Shown here piece after piece: positions 2,061 through 45,594 of a stretch of 45,594 nt of DNA. Positions within the stretch are counted from its first letter, which is position 1; each line of letters begins with the position of its first letter. The notes under the pieces were generated by a model. It made no database searches. It worked only from the letters and a program-made list of their open reading frames with translations, and was not told where the DNA came from. Made by a program: the position numbers and the translations under genes. Source of the stretch: an uncultured Flavonifractor sp. (GTDB lineage: Bacteria > Bacillota > Clostridia > Oscillospirales > Oscillospiraceae); assembly GCA_947346365.1 (NCBI GenBank), contig CANAAV010000021.1:1-45594 (forward strand). The letters run 5' to 3'.

Positions 2061-2760
2061 ATGCCAGATAAACGAAAAGACAGCAAGGGCAGAACGCTCA
2101 GAAACGACGAGACTCAGCAACCGGATGGGAGGTATACATTTCGGTATGTAGATGAGAACGGTGAGCGGAGGACGGTATATAGCTGGAAGCTCGTAGCAAC
2201 TGACAAGTTGAAGGACGGACAGCGTGGTCAAGAATCCCTCCGTGAAAAAGAGAAAAGAATCCTCAAAGACCTTGACGACCATATCAAGACAAAAAACGCA
2301 GAGAAAGTTACAGTTGACGATATGTTCGAGAAGTTCATGGATATTCGGATAGACCTACGGGGTATGACAAGGAAATGCTATAGAGACCTGTTCACAGTAC
2401 ACGTCTCTCCAAGCATTGGCGGAAGGCCCGTAGGTAAAGTTAAGCCATCAGATATCCAGAAATTATACCAAAGCGCTGTTGCCGAACGTGGAGTCACACC
2501 TTCAACAGTTCAAAAAATCCACTCTGTGGTATACCACGTCTTTGAAATCGCAGTCGTTGACAATCTCATCCGAACAAACCCTTCGTCCAATGCTTTCAGG
2601 TATTTTGCCAAGTCAAATGATGGGGTGTCAAGCCCAGAGAAGCCCTCACGGTTGAACAGCAGGAGAAGTTCATTGACTTCGTGTATTCTTCTCATATATA
2701 CAGCAGGTTGGGAAGCCTGTTTACTGCGTTACTGAGGACTGGCCTCAGAAGTAGAGAGGT
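2061..2760 (+). pseudogene. Tyrosine recombinase/integrase, frameshifted and truncated
   Basis: The start is ATG 2061, after AAGGAG. The amino-terminal arm-binding domain (PDGRYTFRYVDENGERRTVY) and the SAM-like core-binding domain (VTVDDMFEKFMDI through SDIQKLYQSAV) are intact and resemble Tn916-family integrases. Near 2633-2636 one base appears to be missing. The reading frame then becomes nonsense to a stop at 2735, while a neighbouring frame continues as REALTVEQQEKFIDFVYSSH and ends in LLRTGLRSREVV. That TGLR is the first catalytic arginine motif. The remaining catalytic domain (HxxR, GH and the tyrosine) is absent because the smc gene begins immediately. It cannot be active as a recombinase. 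Confidence 0.85.
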
Positions 2761-2769
2761 GGTGAGAGT

Positions 2770-5700
2770 ATGTACCTAAAAGCGCTGGAAATTCAGGGAT
2801 TTAAATCCTTTCCAGAAAAAACAGTCCTCTCTTTTGGCGAGGATATCACCGCCATTGTAGGCCCCAACGGCAGCGGAAAGTCCAACATCTCCGACGCCGT
2901 ACGCTGGGTTATGGGGGAGCAATCCACCCGCGCCCTGCGAGGTGGCAAGATGGAGGACGTGATTTTTGGCGGTACCGCCAAGCGCCGCCAGCTGGGCTTC
3001 GCGGAGGTCTCCCTGGTTTTGGACAACACAGACCACCTATTCACCCTGGAGGACAGCGAGGTCATGGTTACCCGGCGGTATTACCGCTCCGGCGAAAGCG
3101 AATACTACATTAACCGCCGCTCTGTCCGGCTCAAAGACGTCAACGAGCTGTTTATGGACACCGGTTTGGGCCGGGAGGGCTATTCCATTATCGGCCAGGG
3201 CAAAATAGATGAGATCCTCTCGGTAAAAAGCGCCGACCGCCGGGAGGTCTTTGAGGAGGCTGCCGGCATCTCCCGCTTCCGCCACCGGAAGGAGGAGGCC
3301 CAGCGCCGCCTGGAGCGCACCGATGAAAATCTGGTGCGCATTACCGACAAAATTGACGAGCTGGAGCTCCAGGTAGAGCCCCTGCGCCAGCAGAGCGAAA
3401 AAGCCAAACGCTTCCTGCTCCTGCGGGATGAGCTGCGGGGGCTTGAAATCTCTCTATGGCTGGATCAGCTGGAAAATCTGCGCGCCAGCGCCATTAAAAT
3501 CCTCTCCGACTATGAAAACGCCGTGCGCCAGAAGCAGGAAACCCAGCAGGCGGTAGAGGCCCTTTACGCCGCCGCCGAGCACTTTTCTGCTCAAATGCGG
3601 GAAAAAGACCTGCAGGCCGAGGGCATCCGTTTTACTATGATGCAGCGGGAAGCCGACGCCAACGGTCTGGAGAGCAGCATTGCCGTTTTAAAAACCAATA
3701 TCCAAAACAATCTGGAGAATACCGGCCGGGTCCGCCGGGAGCTGGACCAGCAGGAGGACCGCGCCGGATCTATCGGCGCTCAAATCGACCAGCGCCGGGC
3801 CCGGTTGGAGACTCTCTTAAGCGAGATGGAGCAGGCGTCCGCCCAGCTTGCCGCCCAGCAGGTCCAGGCGGAGGCCGCCGCCCGCTCCGCCGGAACGCTG
3901 GAGGAGGAGATGGAATCCCTGCGGCAAAAGGAGGCGGTGGAGGCCTCCTCCGCCTCCGAGGCCAAAGCTCTGCTGTCCGCTCTGGCCGCCGCCGCTCAGG
4001 AGCTCTACGACCGGGACGAGAAAATTCGTCAGGAGCTGTCCACCGGCGCAGAACAGCTGCGCCAGGCCCGGAAGGAGCAAAAAAAAGCCGCAGACGCGTT
4101 GGCTCAGGCCCAGGAAGACCGGGACGCCCTGCACAATATCATCAGCGGCTATACCCTGCGCCGGGATGCCCGGCAGCAAAAAGCCAAGCAGGCCGAAGAC
4201 CAGCGTGTCAGGCTGCAGATGGAGGAAAACAACCTTCACTCCCGCATCCGGATGCTCTCTGAGATGGAAAAGCTCTACGAGGGCTATTCCAAAGCGGTCA
4301 AGCTGGTGATGGGGGAGGCGCAGCGGGGACAGCTGCGGGGAATTCACGGGCCGGTGGCGGGGCTGATTCATGCGCCCGACCGCTGCGCCGTCGCCATTGA
4401 AACCGCTCTGGCCGGCGCCATGCAGCACGTGGTGGTGGACACCGACCAGACCGGCAAAGCCGCAATTCAATATTTAAAGCGCAGAGACGCGGGCCGGTGC
4501 ACCTTCTTACCCTTAAATACCATCCGCCCGTCGGATTTCCGGGACCGAAGTGTCGCAGACGAACCCGGCTTTGTGGGCATGGGAGACGCCCTTATTGCGT
4601 TCGACCCGCAATATCAGCGGATTTTTTCCAATCTGCTGGGCCGCACGGTCATCGCCGAGGACATGGACCGCGCACTGGCCATGGCCCGCAAATACGGCCA
4701 CCGCTTTAAAATTGTCACGCTGGACGGGCAAGTGCTCAACCCCGGCGGCTCCATGACCGGCGGCTCCGCCAGCCGCAGCGCCGGCATCCTCAGCCGTTCC
4801 AACGAGCTGGAGCGGCTGAGGGAACAGCTCGGCGGCGTACAGCAGCAGCTGGAGCAGGCCGTGCGCACGGTGGAAGATACCCAGCGGGAGGCCGCCGCCG
4901 CCATTTACGATCTGGAGACCGCTCAAGCTCAGCAGCGCCAGCATGAGGACGCCGTGCTCCAGCTGACGGAGCGCAGGGACCGCTTTGACGAACAGGTCAG
5001 TACTCTAGAAAGCCGCCAGGACGCCCTGCGCCAGGAGCTGGAGCAGCTCAAAGCCCGCTCCCTCCAAACGCAGCAGGACACCCAAAACGCCCGCAGCCGG
5101 ATTGAAGCGCTGGAGGGTTCCGCCGCCGCCCTGCGCGCCCAGGCCCAGAGCAAATCCCAGGGGCAAACCCGCCTTCAGGAGCAGCTGGAAGCCATTAGTG
5201 GGGCGGTTGCCGACCTGAACGTACGCCTGGCGGCCCTGGATGCGGAAAAAGCCGCTTCGGAGAAAAGTCTCCACGAGCTGGAGGCCCTGCGGGACGAGCT
5301 GTCCGGCGACCGGGCGGAACGGGAACGGCTGGTGGCGGAATTTCAGGCCCAAAATACCGCTTTGGAACAGGAAATCTTAGAAAAGGAGCGCCAGCTTCAG
5401 TCCATTCGCCTGGAAAACCGGCAGCGGCAGGAGGCCGCCGGCCGGGCCAATCAGGAAAAGCTGGCCTTAGAGGCCCAGCGCAACCAGGCCGACAAGGATG
5501 CCAGAGACAAAAATACCGAGCTTTTATCCATGGAGCGGGAGGTGGCCGCTCTGGACCAAAAGCGCGCCGCCGCCGCCATGGAGGAAAAACAGCTGCTGGA
5601 TAAGCTCTGGGAGACCTATGAGCTCTCCCACGAGGCCGCCCGCGCCCAGCGGGTAGAGCTGGAGAGCGTGTCCAAGGCCCAGCGCCGGGTGGGCGAGCTC

Positions 5701-6339
5701 AAGCGCGGTATATCCGCCCTGGGCAACATCAATCTGGACGCCATTGAGGAATTCCAGCGGGTCAATGAGCGCTACACCTACCTTACCAGCCAGCGGGACG
5801 ACGTGCGCACCGCCAAGGAGGAGCTGGAGGGCATTATTGGGGACATCACCGAGGAGATGCGCACCATTTTCGCCCAGCAGTTCGGCATGATCAACGCCGC
5901 TTTCCAGCAGACCTTTCTGGAGCTCTTTGGCGGTGGAAAGGCCACCTTGGAGCTGGAGGACCCGGAGGATATTCTCAACTGCGGCATTGAGATCCGGGTG
6001 CAGCCGCCGGGAAAAGCCTTGAAAATCATCACGCTGCTCTCCGGCGGTGAAAAGGCCTTTGTGGCAATCGCCCTGTACTTCGCCATTTTAAAGGTCCGGC
6101 CCACCCCGTTTTGTGTCATGGATGAGATTGAGGCGGCCTTGGACGACGCCAACGTCACCCGCTTCGCCCACTATCTGCGGCAGATGTCGGACAAAACCCA
6201 GTTTATCGTCATCACACACCGCCGGGGCACCATGGAGGAGGCCGACGTGCTCTACGGCGTCACCATGCAGGAGCAAGGGGTCAGCCGTCTGCTGACCATC
6301 AATCTCAATGACGTAGAGCGGGAGCTGCACATCAAATAG
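2770..6339 (+). CDS. smc: Chromosome segregation ATPase SMC
   Basis: SMC is the core of the condensin-like complex with ScpA and ScpB; it organises and helps resolve the replicating chromosome. At 1,189 residues it is of normal length. Walker A is GPNGSGKSN (about 31-39), followed by the long coiled coil, a hinge around 500-660, the return coil, the ABC signature LSGGEKA (about 1090) and Walker B FCVMDEIEAALDD (about 1115-1126). The ribosome site AGGTGGTGAG precedes ATG 2770. It is followed by ftsY after 42 bp, the usual Firmicutes order. The usual upstream neighbour rnc is not here; a broken integrase abuts the gene instead. Confidence 0.98.
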   Translation: MYLKALEIQGFKSFPEKTVLSFGEDITAIVGPNGSGKSNISDAVRWVMGEQSTRALRGGKMEDVIFGGTAKRRQLGFAEVSLVLDNTDHLFTLEDSEVMVTRRYYRSGESEYYINRRSVRLKDVNELFMDTGLGREGYSIIGQGKIDEILSVKSADRREVFEEAAGISRFRHRKEEAQRRLERTDENLVRITDKIDELELQVEPLRQQSEKAKRFLLLRDELRGLEISLWLDQLENLRASAIKILSDYENAVRQKQETQQAVEALYAAAEHFSAQMREKDLQAEGIRFTMMQREADANGLESSIAVLKTNIQNNLENTGRVRRELDQQEDRAGSIGAQIDQRRARLETLLSEMEQASAQLAAQQVQAEAAARSAGTLEEEMESLRQKEAVEASSASEAKALLSALAAAAQELYDRDEKIRQELSTGAEQLRQARKEQKKAADALAQAQEDRDALHNIISGYTLRRDARQQKAKQAEDQRVRLQMEENNLHSRIRMLSEMEKLYEGYSKAVKLVMGEAQRGQLRGIHGPVAGLIHAPDRCAVAIETALAGAMQHVVVDTDQTGKAAIQYLKRRDAGRCTFLPLNTIRPSDFRDRSVADEPGFVGMGDALIAFDPQYQRIFSNLLGRTVIAEDMDRALAMARKYGHRFKIVTLDGQVLNPGGSMTGGSASRSAGILSRSNELERLREQLGGVQQQLEQAVRTVEDTQREAAAAIYDLETAQAQQRQHEDAVLQLTERRDRFDEQVSTLESRQDALRQELEQLKARSLQTQQDTQNARSRIEALEGSAAALRAQAQSKSQGQTRLQEQLEAISGAVADLNVRLAALDAEKAASEKSLHELEALRDELSGDRAERERLVAEFQAQNTALEQEILEKERQLQSIRLENRQRQEAAGRANQEKLALEAQRNQADKDARDKNTELLSMEREVAALDQKRAAAAMEEKQLLDKLWETYELSHEAARAQRVELESVSKAQRRVGELKRGISALGNINLDAIEEFQRVNERYTYLTSQRDDVRTAKEELEGIIGDITEEMRTIFAQQFGMINAAFQQTFLELFGGGKATLELEDPEDILNCGIEIRVQPPGKALKIITLLSGGEKAFVAIALYFAILKVRPTPFCVMDEIEAALDDANVTRFAHYLRQMSDKTQFIVITHRRGTMEEADVLYGVTMQEQGVSRLLTINLNDVERELHIK

Positions 6340-23175: not shown

Positions 23176-24600
23176 TCAACTCTGGGGAATGCCAGCGAAC
23201 AATCCAGTGGCAATTTCCGTTTTCATCTTTCTAATCAGCCGAGCCAGCTTTTCCTCACATTCGGCTTCAGTAGTGGCGTAGATGTTCCGGGCTATCCGTT
23301 TTCCGTTGACCTTTGGGGAGTAGCGCCCCTCCCATAGGTGGTCGCTGATTTGCGTGACGCAGCCCGTCCCCGGCTTGCGGTATTTGCCCTTGACCGCCTG
23401 GAACGCAGTGCAGGCGGACTTTTTCGGAGTTTCTGTCTTTGGCTGAGGCTCCACCTTTACGATGGCCCGGTCGATTTTTGCCGCCGCCGACTGCCGCATT
23501 TCGTCGGTGACGTGGGCGTAGACATTCAGCGTTGTGGCACTGGAGACGTGGCCAATAACGGCGGACAGGGTCTTGATGTCCATGCCATGCTCCAGGGCGT
23601 TGGTGGCGAATGTGTGTCGGAGGTCGTGGAAGCGGACATGCTTGCAGCCCGCCCGCTCCAGGACGATGGCCAGCTTCTTTCGGACAGCAGTAGGGTCCCG
23701 AGGAGAATCTTCCTTTCTGGGTGAGGGGAACATCCACCGGGAATTGATGCCCTGCCGGTAGCCTTTCAGGATATCCAGCACTGACGTTGGGAGGATGACA
23801 GATCTGCTGGAAGATTTGGTCTTAGGCTGGGTTACGGTCAGTTTACCCTTTACCCTCTGCACCTGTCGTTCCACCCGCAGCGTCCCAGTTTTGAAATTGA
23901 GATCGTCCCACTGGAGAGCCAGAAGTTCGCCGCGGCGCAGTCCGGTGGACAGTTCCAGCAGGAGAAGCTCGAAGCAGTCGTTTTCTCTCGCCTGAATCAG
24001 CAGCCGCTGCATCTCCTCCTGGGTCAACACCTGCATCTCCTTGGGATGAGTGGCAGGAGCTTTACAGGCAAGGGCGGGATTTTTCAGGATCAGCCCTTGG
24101 GTTACCGCCCTGTCCAGCGCCACCCGGCAGGTCACATGACAGCTTTTCACCATGCGGTCCGACAGGCCAGGACCGTATTCCGACCTGCGGAGGAGCCGAC
24201 CTCCCTGTTTGAGGCGGACGTAAAACTGCTGGAGGTCGCCGGGGGTGAGCTTAGCCAGCGGAATATGCCCCAACTCCGGGATGATGTGCTGGTAGATGCG
24301 GTTCTCATAGTCCGCCTGGGTCTTGGGGCGGATGGTGGGCTTGCACTCCGTTTGATACCAGCGGTCCATCCAAGCCCCGAAGGTCATATCCGCTTTGGGC
24401 CGCTGCTCCGGTTTAGCTGTTTTCAGGCTGTCCCGCAGTGCTTTGAGTTTCTCCTCACATTCCCGTTTAGTTTTCGCCAGCACATTTTTTGTTTTGGGCA
24501 ATCCCTTCTCGTTGCGCCCAATGACGTATCTGCCTTCCCAGCGGCCATCCTTCCTCTTATGGATGCTGCCGTCCCCGCGGCTGCTCTTTCGCTTTGCCAT
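23176..24600 (-). CDS. Tyrosine recombinase (integrase A) with an extra C-terminal arm-like domain
   Basis: A 474-residue site-specific recombinase. Residues 9-55 are the AP2-like arm-binding domain (GDGSIHKRKDGRWEGRYV), about 73-180 the SAM-like core-binding domain, and 190-380 the catalytic domain with R222 (TGLRRGE), H325 and R328 (HDLRH), H351 (IGH) and nucleophile Y361. After the catalytic domain, residues 411-455 repeat the arm motif in degenerate form (CVTQISDHLWEGRYSPKVNG, ATTEAECEEKL). AAGGAGGTGAG precedes ATG 24600. It lies 12 bp downstream of integrase B. A closely related enzyme is encoded at 42300-43721. Confidence 0.95.
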   Translation of the reverse strand: MAKRKSSRGDGSIHKRKDGRWEGRYVIGRNEKGLPKTKNVLAKTKRECEEKLKALRDSLKTAKPEQRPKADMTFGAWMDRWYQTECKPTIRPKTQADYENRIYQHIIPELGHIPLAKLTPGDLQQFYVRLKQGGRLLRRSEYGPGLSDRMVKSCHVTCRVALDRAVTQGLILKNPALACKAPATHPKEMQVLTQEEMQRLLIQARENDCFELLLLELSTGLRRGELLALQWDDLNFKTGTLRVERQVQRVKGKLTVTQPKTKSSSRSVILPTSVLDILKGYRQGINSRWMFPSPRKEDSPRDPTAVRKKLAIVLERAGCKHVRFHDLRHTFATNALEHGMDIKTLSAVIGHVSSATTLNVYAHVTDEMRQSAAAKIDRAIVKVEPQPKTETPKKSACTAFQAVKGKYRKPGTGCVTQISDHLWEGRYSPKVNGKRIARNIYATTEAECEEKLARLIRKMKTEIATGLFAGIPQS

Positions 24601-24612
24601 AAGCTCACCTCC

Positions 24613-25764
24613 TTAGAGAATATCCTGTATGAAGTCGCCCACGACCTGGGCGGCATGGCGCTGCATGTCTCCCGTGACGTGGGCGTAGGTGTCCAGCGTG
24701 AAGCTGGCCTTGGTGTGGCCTAAGATACCGGATAGGGTCTTGGCATCCACTCCGCCGGCCAGAGCGTGGGTCGCGAATGTGTGACGAAGATCATGGAATC
24801 GAATATCAGGCAATCCCGTCTCCGCCAGAAGCTTCTTCAACTGCCGGTAGGCACTTTCAGGGCGGGTGGGGCTTTCCGGTTTTAACAGATCAGGAAATAT
24901 CCACTCCGTCAGTGCGGTTTCTTCCCTCTTTTTCAGAAGCTGGATCGTACTGTAGGGCAGCAGGATCGTCCGCTTCCCGGCGTAGGTTTTGGTATCCCCC
25001 ACTTCCAGCGTACCGCCCTTTCCGGAGCGGATGGTGCGGCAGATTTTCAGCGTCCCAGCTTTGCTGTCGAAGTCCTCCCATTTGAGACCGCACAGCTCAC
25101 CCCGGCGCAGACCTATAGTCAGTTCCGTGTAGAAGAAGTCGTGCCAGAGGGTATCCTTGCGAATCGCTGTCATGAGGGCGTCCAACTGTTCATTGTTGAG
25201 AATACGCTTCGACTTGTTTGATACCTTGGGTGGCATCACCTGACCGGCAGGATTGTCGGGCAGCAGATCTTCTGCTTCAGCTGTTTTCAGCGCGTGGTGA
25301 AGGATGGTATGAATGCCATGCACGGTGGTTGGCGAAAGTCCGGGGTGATTGCTTTTCCCCTTGGCGATCCGTCCATGTTCCAGGAGGAACGTATACAGAT
25401 CGTTCAAATCGGATGGTGTAATCTTAGACAGTTGCTTTTGTCCCAAATAGGGATTGACGTGGTTGTTAATATCTCGCCGGTATCCCTCCAGGGTGTGACT
25501 GCGGATGGTTCCCACCATGCGCTCGTCCAGCCATTTGTCCAACCATTTTGAGAGAGACATCCTGCTCTGCTCTGTCAGCTCTACCCCCCGGTAGGCGTCA
25601 ATGTTCTGGTGGAGCTTGGCGGTCAGTTCCTTTTGTGTGTCGGCATAGATGTACCGAAAGATAGACTCGCCGTTTTCCTTGTGACCCACCACGATGCGGC
25701 CCTCCCAGCGTCCGTCATCACGCTTGCGCACCATGCCGTCGCCCGACGGCCTGCGTTTTGCCAT
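24613..25764 (-). CDS. Tyrosine recombinase (integrase B)
   Basis: A 383-residue recombinase of standard layout: arm-binding domain (GDGMVRKRDDGRWEGRIVVG), core-binding domain (about 68-175), and catalytic domain with R220 (IGLRRGE), H324 and R327 (FHDLRH), H350 (LGH) and Y360. It is diverged from integrase A and has no carboxy-terminal extension. Its stop is 12 bp before integrase A, so the two are translated together and may act as a pair on different sites or strands. The carboxy-terminal half is the closest match to the recombinase part of the fusion at 43679-45394. Confidence 0.95.
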   Translation of the reverse strand: MAKRRPSGDGMVRKRDDGRWEGRIVVGHKENGESIFRYIYADTQKELTAKLHQNIDAYRGVELTEQSRMSLSKWLDKWLDERMVGTIRSHTLEGYRRDINNHVNPYLGQKQLSKITPSDLNDLYTFLLEHGRIAKGKSNHPGLSPTTVHGIHTILHHALKTAEAEDLLPDNPAGQVMPPKVSNKSKRILNNEQLDALMTAIRKDTLWHDFFYTELTIGLRRGELCGLKWEDFDSKAGTLKICRTIRSGKGGTLEVGDTKTYAGKRTILLPYSTIQLLKKREETALTEWIFPDLLKPESPTRPESAYRQLKKLLAETGLPDIRFHDLRHTFATHALAGGVDAKTLSGILGHTKASFTLDTYAHVTGDMQRHAAQVVGDFIQDIL

Positions 25765-25767
25765 TTA

Positions 25768-26064
25768 TTATTCACCTCCAGTCCGAATATCACCGTCGTC
25801 GTCATCCATACACTCCGCCATCAGCCTCACGCCTAACCGAAAGCCCAGAATGAAATTCTCGGCCGCTGTGATGCTGTCGATCTCATGCTGTGACCGGATG
25901 AGTTTTGTGAGAGCCTCTTGCCCAGTTTCCCCGAGCTGCTCCATGAGTTGTTTTTCACAGCTGGCGGCACGAGCTACCGCTTTTTCCATCTCTGAGCCGG
26001 GGGTCATCCTCTGCTCATTGGGTGTGATGTTGCCGTAGTAGAGATCTTCCAGGGTTTTTCTCAT
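25768..26064 (-). CDS. DUF6809-like small protein (98 aa)
   Basis: MRKTLEDLYYGNITPNEQ and the closing ENFILGFRLGVRLMAE are the two signatures I associate with the DUF6809 group of small Clostridia proteins; the function is unknown. The middle is helical with charged faces. ATG 26064 follows AAGGAGG; a longer frame to 26121 lacks a site. It sits between the relaxase and integrase B, 3 bp before the latter, as an intimate part of the mobility operon. In the second element this gene is absent, lost in the deletion that fused relaxase and integrase. Confidence 0.72.
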   Translation of the reverse strand: MRKTLEDLYYGNITPNEQRMTPGSEMEKAVARAASCEKQLMEQLGETGQEALTKLIRSQHEIDSITAAENFILGFRLGVRLMAECMDDDDGDIRTGGE

Positions 26065-26190
26065 TTCAACCAACCTCCTTTGCAGCAACACACAATACCC
26101 TAACTGCACTTGAATAGCCATCCCTGTTGAGCAGAGTTATCAGAAATTTAATAGGTTGCTCTTCATTGTAGACGGTAGCGCAATCGACGA

Positions 26191-27933
26191 CTATCCCATC
26201 GCCATCGTCTGGCTCTGGGCCTGCTCCTCGTGGTCATCCGCCTTGTGACCCATAGCGACCTTCTTCTCTCTGAGCTGCGCCAGCCGCTTTCGGTCGATTT
26301 GGATTCCGCCGGGGATGGAGAGCGGTGGTACCTGGTCCTGAAAAATATGGCCCATGTGATGAAGCAGTCGAGTGACCGACAGCATGACCGAGGGAGGCTT
26401 CAGACTGTTCCAGCGGTCCAGGAAAAACTGAGCGTATTCGTTGCCCTGCGCGGCGGACTGTGAGAACCAGTAGTGGGCCTGCGTCTGATTTTGCCTGTCC
26501 AGATACAGCTTACCGAGAGCGTATTGGGCAAACTGGTTTCCGGTCTTGGCTGACTGGGTGAGGTACTCCTGTGCTTTGGCGGAGTCTCTCTCCACGATCT
26601 CACCCTTGAGATACTCTTTGCCCAGACGGTAGGCGGCGCAGTCACTCCCATGGTGGGCGGCATACTCTAACCATTGGATTCCCAACTCGGCGTCGTGCAC
26701 TTCCGCATCGTCGGTGAGGTACAGTTTACCCAGAGCGTACTGCGCTGGCACATGACCCTGCCGGGCCGACTGGTCGAACCAGTATTGCGCTTCCACATTG
26801 TCTGGAATCAGAACCGGGCCGTCCCGGTAGAGCTTGCCGACGAGATACTGCGCATCAGGGTCACCACTTTCAGCTTTGCGGATCAACTGTGCCGCCGCTT
26901 CATCCCTGTCACCCATCGGGGCGGTGTCATCCTGTGTAACCATCCATAGCTCCCAACAGTCGTGTGGTAGGTCGGAGGTGAGTTCCTGCTTCTCCATCTC
27001 CTCATCCTCGAAAGTGACTTTGCCCATGCGGATGTTCTCTGCTTCCTGAATGACCGCGTTCTTGATGGAACGGAAATCCTTCTGTTGAGACAGCGGCGGA
27101 CGTTGGCGCTCTCGCTCGGAATAGAAATCCTTGATCTGACATTGGAGTTCCCACCACATTTGATAGCACTCGTTGATAGCAGGCAATTGTTCCAGCTTGT
27201 CAACGATTTCGTCTACGGTTTTCTTCACGGCTTTGGGGAGGTAGCCGTAGGTTTTCTTACCTGTCACTGTTTCCAACTGAGCGGCCAGTGTTACCATTAA
27301 CGACTCCACTTCAGGGTGGTTGCCGAGGTTGATCTGCATTTCCTGCGCCAGGGCTTTCATTTCTTCTCTGGCCCTGCGCACCAGTTCATCTCTGGAGGAA
27401 GACTTCTGCTCGTAGGTGTGGAGCATCCCCTGCTTGAAAATGTCGTTGGTCAGCGCGGACTTGATTTTGCGGATGCCATCCTTGGAGAGGTACGCCTGTC
27501 CCGGCTTCACTGACCACGCCATCATGTGGATATGGGGGTGGCCGCCCTCGTCGTGGAAGGCGGCGTACCAGCGAAAGTCGCCGGGCGGGATATTCATCGC
27601 GGCGGCGATCTCATTGCGGTGGGCTCGGATCAAGTTGCGCCACTGCGCAGCGTGGTCGTACCCCAGCCGCTCGGCGTCCTCCCGCTTGAGGGAGATGACG
27701 TGCATCCAGATGTTGCCGGGGTACTCGTTCAGCTCCTTCATGACGGCGTCCATACCTACGCTGCCCTCGTCGCCGAAGAGGCCGTGAGAGCGCGGGCGCT
27801 CCGCCATGTACTCCATGTAGCCGGAGGGCAGCAGCTCCACGCCCTCGCGGGTACCGATGTATTTCAGGTAACCTCCCGGACCACCACCAGCGCCGCCCTT
27901 GATGTAGGGACTCTTGACGATCAGTCTTGCCAC
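26191..27933 (-). CDS. MobP-type relaxase with C-terminal Sel1 repeats
   Basis: This is the conjugative nickase that cuts oriT and leads one DNA strand to the recipient. Residues 1-330 are the relaxase: a basic start (ARLIVKSPYIKGG), GGYLKYIGTREGVE, a mid-domain WMHVISLKREDAERLG, and the metal-binding histidines H127, H132, H134, H136 in FHDEGGHPHIHMMAW. I judge it closest to the MobP3 group. From about 355 to 510 are four or five Sel1-type helical repeats (AQYLVGKLYRDG, AQYALGKLYL), usually protein-binding. The start is GTG at 27933, overlapping the RHH gene by 13 bp. No type IV secretion genes are in the window, so transfer must use another element's machinery. Confidence 0.9.
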   Translation of the reverse strand: MARLIVKSPYIKGGAGGGPGGYLKYIGTREGVELLPSGYMEYMAERPRSHGLFGDEGSVGMDAVMKELNEYPGNIWMHVISLKREDAERLGYDHAAQWRNLIRAHRNEIAAAMNIPPGDFRWYAAFHDEGGHPHIHMMAWSVKPGQAYLSKDGIRKIKSALTNDIFKQGMLHTYEQKSSSRDELVRRAREEMKALAQEMQINLGNHPEVESLMVTLAAQLETVTGKKTYGYLPKAVKKTVDEIVDKLEQLPAINECYQMWWELQCQIKDFYSERERQRPPLSQQKDFRSIKNAVIQEAENIRMGKVTFEDEEMEKQELTSDLPHDCWELWMVTQDDTAPMGDRDEAAAQLIRKAESGDPDAQYLVGKLYRDGPVLIPDNVEAQYWFDQSARQGHVPAQYALGKLYLTDDAEVHDAELGIQWLEYAAHHGSDCAAYRLGKEYLKGEIVERDSAKAQEYLTQSAKTGNQFAQYALGKLYLDRQNQTQAHYWFSQSAAQGNEYAQFFLDRWNSLKPPSVMLSVTRLLHHMGHIFQDQVPPLSIPGGIQIDRKRLAQLREKKVAMGHKADDHEEQAQSQTMAMG

Positions 27934-28349
27934 TGGTCATCTCCATCATCCGGTTGCTCTCTGACTTTCTGCTCAAAGGTCAGTAAGCCGTTGGTGGCCT
28001 TCACGTTCTTCACACTGTCCGCTCGCAGTTTGCGCAGGTAGTCGCTATCCATCCGGATACAATCGAGGACGGCGCTGATCCCCATGTCCATCTCTACGGC
28101 CAGCTTATAGAAAAGCCGGGCCAGTCTGTCTTCGAACATCCCCAGCCGCCCGTCGATAGCGGACTGAATCGCTGCGGGGAGCATTTCGTTCTGCTCCGCC
28201 TCAAGAAGATCCTGGTAGTGGGCGATGGCTCTTTCAATGAATTCGTTTTTGCTCCGGCTGCCATCCAGGCGGTAGTCCCGTTCCAATCGGAACTCCGTGA
28301 TCGGGGACAGTCGAATAGTCATTTTGTGGGTGTTTTCTGTTTTGCTCAT
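27921..28349 (-). CDS. Ribbon-helix-helix relaxosome accessory protein
   Basis: The 142-residue protein opens with MTIRLSPITEFRLERDYRL and SRSKNEFIERAIAHYQDLL, a ribbon-helix-helix DNA-binding fold as in MobC/NikA partners of relaxases. A helical tail follows (LFYKLAVEMDMGISAVLDCI, ADSVKNVKATNGLLTFEQKV). ATG 28349 follows GGAGG. Its stop lies inside the relaxase gene, so the two are coupled, and it should bind oriT just upstream. A near-identical tail is encoded at the window's right edge. Confidence 0.85.
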   Translation of the reverse strand: MSKTENTHKMTIRLSPITEFRLERDYRLDGSRSKNEFIERAIAHYQDLLEAEQNEMLPAAIQSAIDGRLGMFEDRLARLFYKLAVEMDMGISAVLDCIRMDSDYLRKLRADSVKNVKATNGLLTFEQKVREQPDDGDDQWQD

Positions 28350-28471
28350 AATATCCTCCAAATTGTGTGTTTGGTGCCGGGGAAAGCTCTGCCGCTCTAA
28401 GGGCGAGCCCCGAGATGAGGTCAAACGCTCTTTTTTCTCTCTGGAATGAGGTCACTCCGTATCCCCGAAAA

Positions 28472-42299: not shown

Positions 42300-43721
42300 T
42301 CAGCCTGCTTTCAGACGCACTCTTTCAGCGGCGATTTCCGCTTTCATTTCTACGATCATCTCTGCCAGCAGTTTTTCACACTCTTCCTCACTGTGAGCGT
42401 AGATGTTCCGAGGGTGTCTTTTGCCATCCGGCCAGATAGGAGAGTAGCGTCCTTCCCAGAGCTTCTCGTTGATCTGAGTGACGCATCCGGTCCCCGCTTT
42501 ACGCCTCTGGCCTTTGTGGGCCTGGAATGTACTGGGAACAGGCTTCCGAGGTGCTAACTGACTCTCTGCTTGTAGCTCAGTTTTGCCGATACCCTGGTCG
42601 ATTTTTACCGCCGCTGTACGGCGCATCTCATCGGTAACGTGAGCGTAGATGTTCAGTGTGGTGCTACTGGAGACATGGCCGATAATAGTGGACAGGGTCT
42701 TGATATCCATCCCATGCTCCAGGGCAGTGGTAGAAAATGTGTGCCTGAGATCGTGAAATCTGATTTTCTTACATTCTGCCCGTTCCAGAACGGTCTGTAA
42801 TCTTTTGCGAACTGCGGCTGGGTCTCTGGGAGAGTCCTCACTGACCGGGGAAGGAAACATCCACCGGGAGTTCACGGTTTTTTTGTAGGCCTTGAGGACG
42901 CCCAGAACAGGCACAGGGAGGATCACGCTGCGGTTGCCAGCCTTGGTTTTGGGTGGAGAGGCCACCAGCTTGCTCTTTATCCGATGAACCTGTCGCTGTA
43001 CTCGGAGTTCCCCAGTGCGGAGGTTGAGGTCATCCCATTGGAGGGCGCATATCTCGCCCCGCCGCAGTCCAGTGGAGAGCTCCAACAGGAGAAGCTCGAA
43101 GCAACTGTCCTCTTTGGCTTGGATCAGCAGACGTTGGATTTCCTCCGGAGAAAGCACCTGCATTTCTCTGGCTTTGGCGGAGGGGAGACGGCAGCCATCG
43201 GCGGGATTGCGGAAGAGGAGCTTTTCCGCAACGGCCTTGTCCAGTGCGGCATGGAGGGTGGTGTGGATGCCCCGAACAGTCTGGTCGGACAGTCCTTCAC
43301 CATATAATTCAGACCGGAGCAGTCTGCCGCCCTGCTTGAGTTTAGCGTAGAACTGCTGGATGTCGTTGGTGGTCAGTTTGTCCATCTGGATATTGCCCAA
43401 GGCTGGGGTGATGTGCTGGTAGATGCGCCGCTCGTAGGACATCTGAGTATTGGGGCGGAGATTGGATTTCTTATAGGTCTGATACCAGATATCCAGCCAG
43501 TCCCCCAATAGGATTCCAGGTTTAGGCTGTTCAGGAGCAGGAGCCTGGATGCTGTCCCTCAGTGCCTTGAGTTTTGCGATACAGTCCGACTTGGTCTTTG
43601 CCAGAACATTTTTGGTGACGGGGAGGCCTTTATCGTCGTAGCCGACGACTACCCTCCCCTCCCAGCGGCCGTCTTTTCTCAGGCTGACGCCGCCGTCCCC
43701 GCGCTTTCTGCGTTTTGCCAC
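42300..43721 (-). CDS. Tyrosine recombinase (integrase C), close relative of integrase A
   Basis: A 473-residue recombinase with the same plan as integrase A: arm-binding GDGGVSLRKDGRWEGRVVVG, core-binding domain, and catalytic residues R220 (TGLRRGE), H323 and R326 (FHDLRH), H349 (IGH) and Y359. It also has the same carboxy-terminal second arm-like domain (GTGCVTQINEKLWEGRY, HSEEECEKLL). Much of the length is identical to integrase A. The start ATG 43721 lies inside the 3' end of the relaxase-recombinase fusion (43 bp overlap). It is the integrase nearest the tRNA-Thr fragment and probably acts there. Confidence 0.95.
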   Translation of the reverse strand: MAKRRKRGDGGVSLRKDGRWEGRVVVGYDDKGLPVTKNVLAKTKSDCIAKLKALRDSIQAPAPEQPKPGILLGDWLDIWYQTYKKSNLRPNTQMSYERRIYQHITPALGNIQMDKLTTNDIQQFYAKLKQGGRLLRSELYGEGLSDQTVRGIHTTLHAALDKAVAEKLLFRNPADGCRLPSAKAREMQVLSPEEIQRLLIQAKEDSCFELLLLELSTGLRRGEICALQWDDLNLRTGELRVQRQVHRIKSKLVASPPKTKAGNRSVILPVPVLGVLKAYKKTVNSRWMFPSPVSEDSPRDPAAVRKRLQTVLERAECKKIRFHDLRHTFSTTALEHGMDIKTLSTIIGHVSSSTTLNIYAHVTDEMRRTAAVKIDQGIGKTELQAESQLAPRKPVPSTFQAHKGQRRKAGTGCVTQINEKLWEGRYSPIWPDGKRHPRNIYAHSEEECEKLLAEMIVEMKAEIAAERVRLKAG

Positions 43722-45394
43722 GGTTTCATCTCCTCTCCAAGGTAATCAGTCAGAAAGCCGCCGACAATGTCAGCGGCACGCTTCTGCATATCGCCGGTGG
43801 TGTGGGTATAGGTATCCAGAGTGAAGGACGCTTTGGTGTGGCCAAGGATTCCAGCCAGGGTTTTGGCATCCACACCGCTGGACAGCGCATGAGTTGAGAA
43901 TGTGTGTCTGAGGTCGTGGAAGCGGATATTTGGCAGTCCAGCCTCCGCCAGAAATTTCTTCAGCTGTCGGTAGGCACTGTCGGGATTCATAGGAGCCTCT
44001 GGACGAAGTGGATCGTGAAAGATCCAGGGAGAGAAGGATTTCCGTTTTCGTTCTTTTAGTAGTTCCGCTGTACTGGGCGGTAGGACGATCTTCCGTGTGC
44101 CGGCGTAGGTTTTAGTATCTCCTGCCACCAGCCTGCCGCCCTTTTCCCGGTGAAGAGTTCGGTTGACTTTCAGGATACCGTTGCGCTCGTCGAAGTCAGA
44201 CCACATGAGGCCGCAGATTTCACCCCGGCGCAGGCCGGTGGTCAACTCAGTGTAGAAGAAGTCATACCAGATTTCATCGGCTTTGATTGCTGTCAGGAAA
44301 ACATCCAGCTGCTCCTCAGTTAGAATCTTCATTGGCTGATGAATCACCTTAGGCGGCTCCATCTCGTCAGCGGGATTGACAGGAATCGGGGCGGTGTCAT
44401 CCTGTGTGACCATCCACAACTCCCGGCAGTCGTGTAACAGGTCAGAGAACTCTGTGGGTTCCTCCATCTCCTCGTCCTCAAAAGTGACTTTGCCCATGCG
44501 GATGTTCTCCGCCTCCTGGACAACCGCGTTCTTAATAGAACGGAACTCCTTCTGCTGTGAGAGCGGCGGACGCCGGCGTTCCTTCTCCGAATAAAAATCT
44601 TCTATTTGACACTGGAGCTCCCACCAGACTTGATAACATTCATCAATGACGGGCAGCTGCTCCATCTGATCAACGATTTCATCCACGGTTTTCTTTACCG
44701 CTTTGGGAAGGTAGCCGTATTTTTTCTTGCCCTTCACTGTCTCCAACTGAGCGGCCAACGTCATCATCAGTGATTCCACCTTTGGATGGTCGCCGATGCA
44801 GGTCTGCATCTCCTGTACCAGAGACTTCATTTCCCCTCTGGCCCTGCGCACCAGTTCATCCCTGGAGGTGGACTTCTGCTCATAGGTGTGGAGCATCTCC
44901 TGCTTGAAAATATCGTTGGTCAGCGCGGACTTGATTTTGCGAATACCATCTTTGGAGAGATACGCCTGTCCCGGTTTCGCTGACCACGCCATCATGTGGA
45001 TGTGGGGGTGGCCACCCTCGTCGTGGAAGGCAGCGTACCAGCGGAAGTCGCTGGACGAGATATTCATCGCGGCGGCGATCTCGTTGCGGTGAGCCTGGAT
45101 CAGGTTGCGCCACTGGGCAGCGTGGTTATATCCCAGTCGCTCGGCGTCCTCCCGTTTAAGGGAGATAATGTGCGTCCAGATGTTTCCAGGGTATTCGTTC
45201 AATTCTTGTGCTACTGCATTCATGTCTACGCAGTCCTCGTCACCGAAGAGACCGTGGGAGCGTGGACGCTCTGCCATATACTCCATGTAGCCAGCGGGCA
45301 GCAACTCCACGCCCTCACGGGTACCAATGTACTCCAAGTAGCCTCCAACTCCACTGCCGCTGATGTAGGGACTCTTGACGATCAGTCTGGCCAC
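43679..45394 (-). CDS. Relaxase-tyrosine recombinase fusion protein
   Basis: Residues 1-337 match the first 339 residues of the MobP-type relaxase at 26191-27933, including GGYLEYIGTREGVE and the metal-site histidines in FHDEGGHPHIHMMAW (H124, H129, H131, H133). At QDDTAPI the match changes without a stop to PVNPADEMEPPKV. From there to the end it matches residues from about 170 of integrase B, with catalytic R389 (TGLRRGE), H493 and R496 (FHDLRH), H519 (LGH) and Y529. The Sel1 repeats, the DUF6809-like gene and the recombinase arm/core-binding domains are absent, as expected from one in-frame deletion of about 1.6 kb. The start is GTG, as in its relative. Whether it is functional is unknown. 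Confidence 0.9.
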   Translation of the reverse strand: MARLIVKSPYISGSGVGGYLEYIGTREGVELLPAGYMEYMAERPRSHGLFGDEDCVDMNAVAQELNEYPGNIWTHIISLKREDAERLGYNHAAQWRNLIQAHRNEIAAAMNISSSDFRWYAAFHDEGGHPHIHMMAWSAKPGQAYLSKDGIRKIKSALTNDIFKQEMLHTYEQKSTSRDELVRRARGEMKSLVQEMQTCIGDHPKVESLMMTLAAQLETVKGKKKYGYLPKAVKKTVDEIVDQMEQLPVIDECYQVWWELQCQIEDFYSEKERRRPPLSQQKEFRSIKNAVVQEAENIRMGKVTFEDEEMEEPTEFSDLLHDCRELWMVTQDDTAPIPVNPADEMEPPKVIHQPMKILTEEQLDVFLTAIKADEIWYDFFYTELTTGLRRGEICGLMWSDFDERNGILKVNRTLHREKGGRLVAGDTKTYAGTRKIVLPPSTAELLKERKRKSFSPWIFHDPLRPEAPMNPDSAYRQLKKFLAEAGLPNIRFHDLRHTFSTHALSSGVDAKTLAGILGHTKASFTLDTYTHTTGDMQKRAADIVGGFLTDYLGEEMKPWQNAESAGTAASA

Positions 45395-45594
45395 TGGTCA
45401 TCACCTGCTCCATCGTCCAGTTGCTCCCTGGCTTTTTGCTCGAAGGTCAGCAGACCGTTGGTGGCCTTCACATTTTTCACACTGTCTGAGCGCAGCTTCC
45501 GCAGGTAGTCCGCATCTACCTGAATGCAATCGAGGATGGCGCTCATACCCATGTCCATCTCTACAGCCAGCTTGTAGAAAAGCCGGGCCAGCCT
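45382..45594 (-). CDS. Ribbon-helix-helix relaxosome protein, 5' end outside window
   Basis: The last 70 codons are present: RLARLFYKLAVEMDMGMSAI, LDCIQVDADYLRKLRSDSVK and NVKATNGLLTFEQKAREQL, ending GDDQWPD. This is close to the carboxy terminus of the protein at 27921-28349. The DNA-binding ribbon would lie beyond base 45594. The stop lies inside the first codons of the fusion gene, the same overlap as in the first element, so the mob gene order is kept. Confidence 0.85.
   Translation of the reverse strand, partial: RLARLFYKLAVEMDMGMSAILDCIQVDADYLRKLRSDSVKNVKATNGLLTFEQKAREQLDDGAGDDQWPD

Follow-up and report, generated by a model that had tools for sequence, protein, structure and literature searches.

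The prototype of the MOBL relaxases is RelLS20 of pLS20, in which the catalytic tyrosine is Tyr26, near the N-terminus, and the HUH motif is important for relaxases of this type (PMC5313138, as far as its accessible text goes). Among recombinases, Int of Tn1549 has core-binding and catalytic domains that jointly encircle the DNA, according to the accessible part of PMC5871717. Among the titles and opening lines of abstracts listed for the open-licence PMC literature (subscription papers and preprints lay outside this scope), no relaxase-recombinase fusion was found, and the sole use found of the term relaxase-integrase referred to combinations of genes.

Here, we analyzed a window (the whole stretch of DNA under study, 45,594 nucleotides) that starts with the first base of contig 21 of a draft assembly (44 contigs, 85.8% complete) and in which the locus of interest, L001, stops at the contig end, position 45594. 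In this locus a relaxase is joined in frame to a tyrosine recombinase. On the basis of current results, the fusion is probably a scar left by a recent deletion, private to this genome, in an integrative mobilizable element (IME) undergoing decay, and not a selected enzyme.

Domains and setting of the fusion frame

Two elements of one family were identified in the window, and their features are listed below. The labels IntA and IntB (two tandem recombinases) and MobC-like are our own.

43679-45394, minus strand: fusion frame of element 2, 571 aa, GTG start (ORF reading, Pfam/NCBIfam)
44385-45394, minus strand: relaxase-derived part, MobP3/MobL residues 1-337, catalytic domain complete (HMM and blastn)
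43679-44386, minus strand: recombinase-derived part, starting at about residue 167 of the 401-residue IntB and running to its end, catalytic domain only
44384-44387, minus strand: deletion junction, with AT at 44385-44386 common to both ends and 1659 bp absent relative to the unfused loci L030 and L037
42300-43721, minus strand: IntA of element 2, intact second tyrosine recombinase, 473 aa (ORF, Pfam)
45382-45594, minus strand: 3' part of the MobC-like gene of element 2, cut by the contig end
42091-42104, minus strand: element 2, right end with core CTCATCCTTACCAA, in the element-borne 3' half of tRNA-Thr
27921-28424, minus strand: MobC-like gene of element 1 (no Pfam or NCBIfam family match)
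26191-27933, minus strand: relaxase of element 1 (580 aa), an unfused paralogue that has both the Sel1 repeats and the C-terminal tail
25768-26121, minus strand: DUF6809 protein of element 1; in L030 and L037 its counterpart falls within the segment that element 2 has lost
24613-25764, minus strand: IntB of element 1, unfused, with N-terminal SAM-like domain, 383 aa (ORF, Pfam)
23176-24600, minus strand: IntA of element 1, 474 aa (ORF, Pfam)

Positions 43679-45394, for which the sequence-only reading named no strand, contain 10 stops when read on the plus strand and are open for 571 codons on the minus strand. Both domains of the in-frame fusion proposed by the sequence-only reading were matched by profile models: Pfam placed MobL at residues 1-329 (E 2e-59; 201.9 bits, cut-off 28.5) and Phage_integrase at 357-532 (E 7e-23), and NCBIfam placed MobP3 at 30-291 (325.7 bits against a cut-off of 150), reaching the model end (315/315). 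Because the MobP3 match runs to the last model position, the relaxase catalytic domain is whole and not the catalytic half that had been described. The three-histidine (HUH) region, HDEGGHPHIHMMAW, occupies residues 124-137, and two candidate N-terminal catalytic tyrosines, Y19 and Y22, lie within GGYLEYIGTREG. The recombinase catalytic residues (R...HxxR...H...Y) are present as numbered earlier, at R389, H493, R496, H519 and Y529. The SAM-like core-binding domain PF14659 was detected by Pfam in both IntA proteins and in IntB of element 1, and not in the fusion. The best sequence matches with solved structures were the Int proteins 6en0, 6emy and 6emz, which we take to be Int of Tn1549.

Element 2 spans 42091 to the contig end at 45594. 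It consists of the 3' part of a MobC-like gene, followed by the fusion and by an IntA gene whose first 43 bp are shared with the fusion frame. The full set of MobC-like gene, relaxase with Sel1 repeats, DUF6809, IntB and IntA is present in element 1 (23176-28424). It was previously suggested that element 1 keeps the unfused ancestors in the same order; the order is indeed the same, but element 1 is a more distant paralogue rather than the ancestor, its identity being 85% in the relaxase half and 63% in the recombinase half.

Elements of this family insert into the anticodon arm of tRNA-Thr(GGT) and bring a 3' half of the gene with them. L030, L037 and L040 sit in such a gene, with CTCATCCTTACCAA at the joint in the anticodon arm. 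Element 2 carries the tRNA-Thr 3' half but adjoins non-tRNA DNA, and the same holds for L042, L043 and L090. The flank of L090, which belongs to a one-contig genome (G369), is also that of element 2 (85.8% identity over 1.3 kb). In the search for the left flank of element 2, one match (79% over 125 bp) fell close to where L090 ends on the left (C25:35026-35149). With regard to the criteria for an IME, the right end of element 2 with its tRNA-Thr half is present on the contig; the left end lies beyond it, and neither this end nor its flank was found in the assembly. A collapsed repeat as the cause of the contig end, tested by proxy, was not found (element 1 and L037 were 77-94% identical per 100 bp around and before mobC).

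The deletion and the parts lost

Two loci in the genome_contigs data set have the unfused form of element 2. L030 (NZ_KE159714.1, Oscillibacter sp. 1-3) was 93% identical over the relaxase half, 92% over the recombinase half and 94% over IntA, and L037 (CAJTEA010000042.1) 89%, 97% and 96%, respectively; blastn over the relaxase-derived block gave 94.9% for L030 and 89.5% for L037. Both are collinear with element 2 up to the joint and give an identical gap of 1659 bp (553 codons, in frame) with AT common to its ends, which supports the earlier proposal that one in-frame deletion made the fusion. The junction had been placed at about 44383; its exact place is 44384-44387. Relative to these two loci, element 2 has lost relaxase residues 338-577 (the last 240), the DUF6809 gene and IntB residues 1-166, and this stretch was matched elsewhere in the assembly by element 1 alone. 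Any deletion leaves the frame intact with a chance of one in three, and the sequence past the joint formed an open reading frame before the deletion; thus, the long open frame alone is no evidence of use. The shared AT is of a size that may arise by chance (an estimate rather than a calculated value), so it fits illegitimate joining and indicates no particular enzyme. When the nearest relative was followed in 200-bp steps, relaxase blocks were 99-100% identical to L030, and recombinase blocks 98-100% identical to L037, L038, L040 or L090. Recombination is frequent in this family, and the switch of nearest relative is not limited to the joint.

The fusion is without the Sel1 region and the C-terminal tail of the relaxase. 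All 49 full-length unfused frames in the loci analyzed have the tail: the pattern G[HL][KRQ]x[DN][DGV][HYV], a feature defined in this analysis and not a published one, occurs in the last 50 residues of each and nowhere upstream. These 49 were the distinct, unfused frames of 440 aa or more, and 6 of the 55 closed frames were left out (the fusion, its partial copy L006, and the truncated L035, L014, L029 and L049). It should be noted that a stricter pattern matched 38 of the 55 closed frames and was then widened after the list had been viewed. Of these 49 relatives, 46-49 have residues in the part that is missing from the fusion, as they do in the catalytic domain, and the mean information content of the missing part per 20-residue step is 2.0-2.9 bits (1.9-4.0 bits in the retained part). 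Since the relatives were found mainly via the catalytic half, conservation of the tail region is not an effect of the search. A GHKxDDH-like tail is often followed by a Met-rich end (for example, at 26191-27933 of the window and in L030 and L037). Its presence in 49 of 49 relatives makes the tail a testable candidate signal for recruitment to the type IV channel. On the recombinase side, the IntB part of the fusion is without its arm and core-binding part, and IntA is intact.

We also measured selection on the two parts of the frame. Pairwise dN/dS was 0.08-0.20 between the relaxase part and six relatives and 0.05-0.15 between the recombinase part and seven relatives. Compared with L030 and L037, the relaxase part has 19 codons private to the fusion, with 12 synonymous and 8 non-synonymous changes; private changes in the same part numbered 15.5 synonymous and 11.5 non-synonymous in L030, and 63 and 26 in L037. 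The recombinase part has 6 fusion-private codons (5 synonymous changes, 1 non-synonymous). Neutral decay of the frame, which the earlier reading had considered as one outcome, was not seen, in that there are no stops, frameshifts or excess of amino-acid changes. Most of the divergence is probably older than the deletion, and therefore the private changes speak clearly for neither side.

Related elements and the search for other fusions

Broken copies recur in the element family. By hand count, the relaxase frame is broken in 4 of the 34 loci that are uncut by a locus end (L035, L039, L048 and L049), and of 38 uncut loci, 7 have an IntB frame of fewer than 370 codons (L034, L051, L062, L067, L073, L080 and L081), IntB matches below 48% identity having been left out of the count. 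In L062 (Flintibacter muris strain DSM 110149, 5304-5858), an upstream gene is directly followed by a 184-aa IntB remnant that begins at about residue 226, and IntA is whole. L062 shares with the fusion the element family, the loss of the IntB front and an intact IntA, but it differs in its breakpoints, has no relaxase joined and has lost the first catalytic Arg. This is a distinct deletion that, as in element 2, spared IntA.

Some other forms were also observed in the family. In three loci, L093 (G000 C29, about 670-1911), L067 (about 2517-3713) and L080, the conserved HDLRH motif near residue 327 is the point at which IntB is interrupted; the inserts of about 1.2 kb in C29 and L067 share sequence by eye, and no Rfam family was matched inside these two inserts. 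The sister elements L090 and L040 have no relaxase but keep DUF6809, IntB and IntA, and both recombinases are intact. The MobC-like gene of L090 is distant (29% to that of element 1), and the L040 gene is similar by eye.

The two-domain architecture, which had been suggested as something to look for in other genomes, was found in the window assembly only, within the samples searched, an outcome that the earlier reading had named as refuting its idea. With three candidates scored per genome, the window was the only fusion among the matches listed for 400 genomes of the family and, at E <= 1e-60, in 394 genomes of the order, 71 of which had a match; the two samples overlap. A joint-spanning locus was found in none of the 53 loci from genome_contigs, in a scan that catches only loci sharing exact short query peptides. 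A single place covering 80% of the query was present in 0 of 1740 matching phage records and 0 of 474 matching plasmid records, and viral_contigs yielded one weak recombinase match. The genus is represented by this genome alone, and a fusion restricted to close kin would escape these searches.

Several matches with unusual ranges or lengths were checked one by one. L099, L100 and L070 (query ranges starting at 264-272) and the phage match H3 (223-566) are ordinary IntB proteins, as IntB of element 1 aligns with them from residue 1. The relaxases of L012, L036 and L041, whose ranges end at 353-378, are not fused; their frames are 582-589 codons long, and the usual tail is present in L012 and L041. 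The same tail closes the long relaxase frames of L098 (616 aa), L097 (720 aa) and L096 (898 aa). The one-by-one check covered the loci named so far; the matches listed also include some with slightly extended ranges (for example, G644, 1-351, and G413, 280-565 with a frame of 403) and, in the order-genome search, relaxase frames 907-1015 aa in length.

Origin and possible activity of the fusion

Because the fusion was seen in one genome only, within the samples searched, and both halves miss parts that their relatives have, it most probably represents a remnant rather than a novel type of enzyme. Element 2 probably descends from an IME in the order MobC, MobP3/MobL relaxase, DUF6809, IntB and IntA, in which a single illegitimate deletion of 1659 bp joined the remaining relaxase and IntB pieces in frame. 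If the fusion protein is made, its relaxase domain would be expected to fold and might nick oriT, but with the conserved tail absent transfer would fail or drop. Its recombinase catalytic domain would presumably support no integration or excision, since the att site would be poorly gripped without the core-binding domain. The frame could still deliver ribosomes to the overlapping IntA start, so that an in-frame deletion would be less harmful to IntA than an out-of-frame one. As a scar, the locus would be a well-placed example of IME decay by internal deletion with IntA spared. On the other hand, the frame has no decay signs inside it and keeps the named catalytic residues, which counts against a scar.

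It is unlikely that the genes are unfused in the cells and that the joint arose as an artefact of sequencing or assembly. The draft state of the assembly, the contig end 1.2 kb from the joint (in mobC) and the different nearest relatives of the two halves (L030, 94.9%, for the relaxase; L040, 93.8%, for the recombinase and IntA) might point that way, but gene order and orientation match the unfused element, L030 and L037 agree on the length of the deletion, and the window contains no N. An overlap of 2 bp is far too short for a mistaken join by an overlap or k-mer assembler. Moreover, the mosaic of nearest relatives runs throughout the element, not at the joint alone, and a missing piece of the element 2 type does not occur elsewhere in the assembly.

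Readings in which the fusion does some work fare less well. A truncated relaxase that nicks oriT and permits a degree of mobilization when assisted in trans (by element 1, for instance), with a recombinase domain that is either passive or weakly partners IntA, is rather improbable: the relaxase catalytic domain is complete, and a full-length relaxase and an IntB belonging to this family are retained in element 1, which lies on this contig as well, but the relaxase tail found in every full-length relative suggests that it is needed. We consider it very improbable that the relaxase domain substitutes for the arm and core-binding domains by bringing the recombinase to oriT, so that one protein both nicks and recombines. 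The completeness of the relaxase domain to the end of the MobP3 model, the five named catalytic residues, the open frame and the retained overlap with the IntA start would all be compatible with such an enzyme; against it stand the occurrence in one genome only, within the samples searched, the loss of both the relaxase tail and the core-binding domain, and the joint encircling of DNA by the two domains of Tn1549 Int (PMC5871717, accessible part). Expression as a single-chain nickase-recombinase in which relaxase specificity replaces the core-binding domain is hardly to be expected, with no example in our searches. The earlier idea of one chain nicking and recombining under relaxase guidance was therefore not borne out, given a single assembly, the loss of tail and arm/core-binding parts and a family with recurrent broken copies. 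If it were a fusion enzyme after all, it would provide a new route linking transfer and integration.

The locus may finally be compared with the known systems. For MpsA/MpsB of Salmonella Genomic Island 1, a recombinase-like protein has itself been proposed as the relaxase, unlike in the fusion; MpsB resembles a core-binding domain, and the accessible text of PMC6414798 names no fusion to an HUH relaxase. The N-terminal 337 residues of the fusion are like MobL/MobP3 relaxases (PF18555, NF041499), with the HMM match to the model end and the three-histidine region, but where close relatives have Sel1 repeats and the C-terminal tail, the fusion has an integrase catalytic domain. With the Xer and conjugative-transposon Int recombinases (PF00589; best solved match 6en0) it has the catalytic R, H, R, H and Y in common, whereas the place of their arm and core-binding domains is taken by a relaxase domain.
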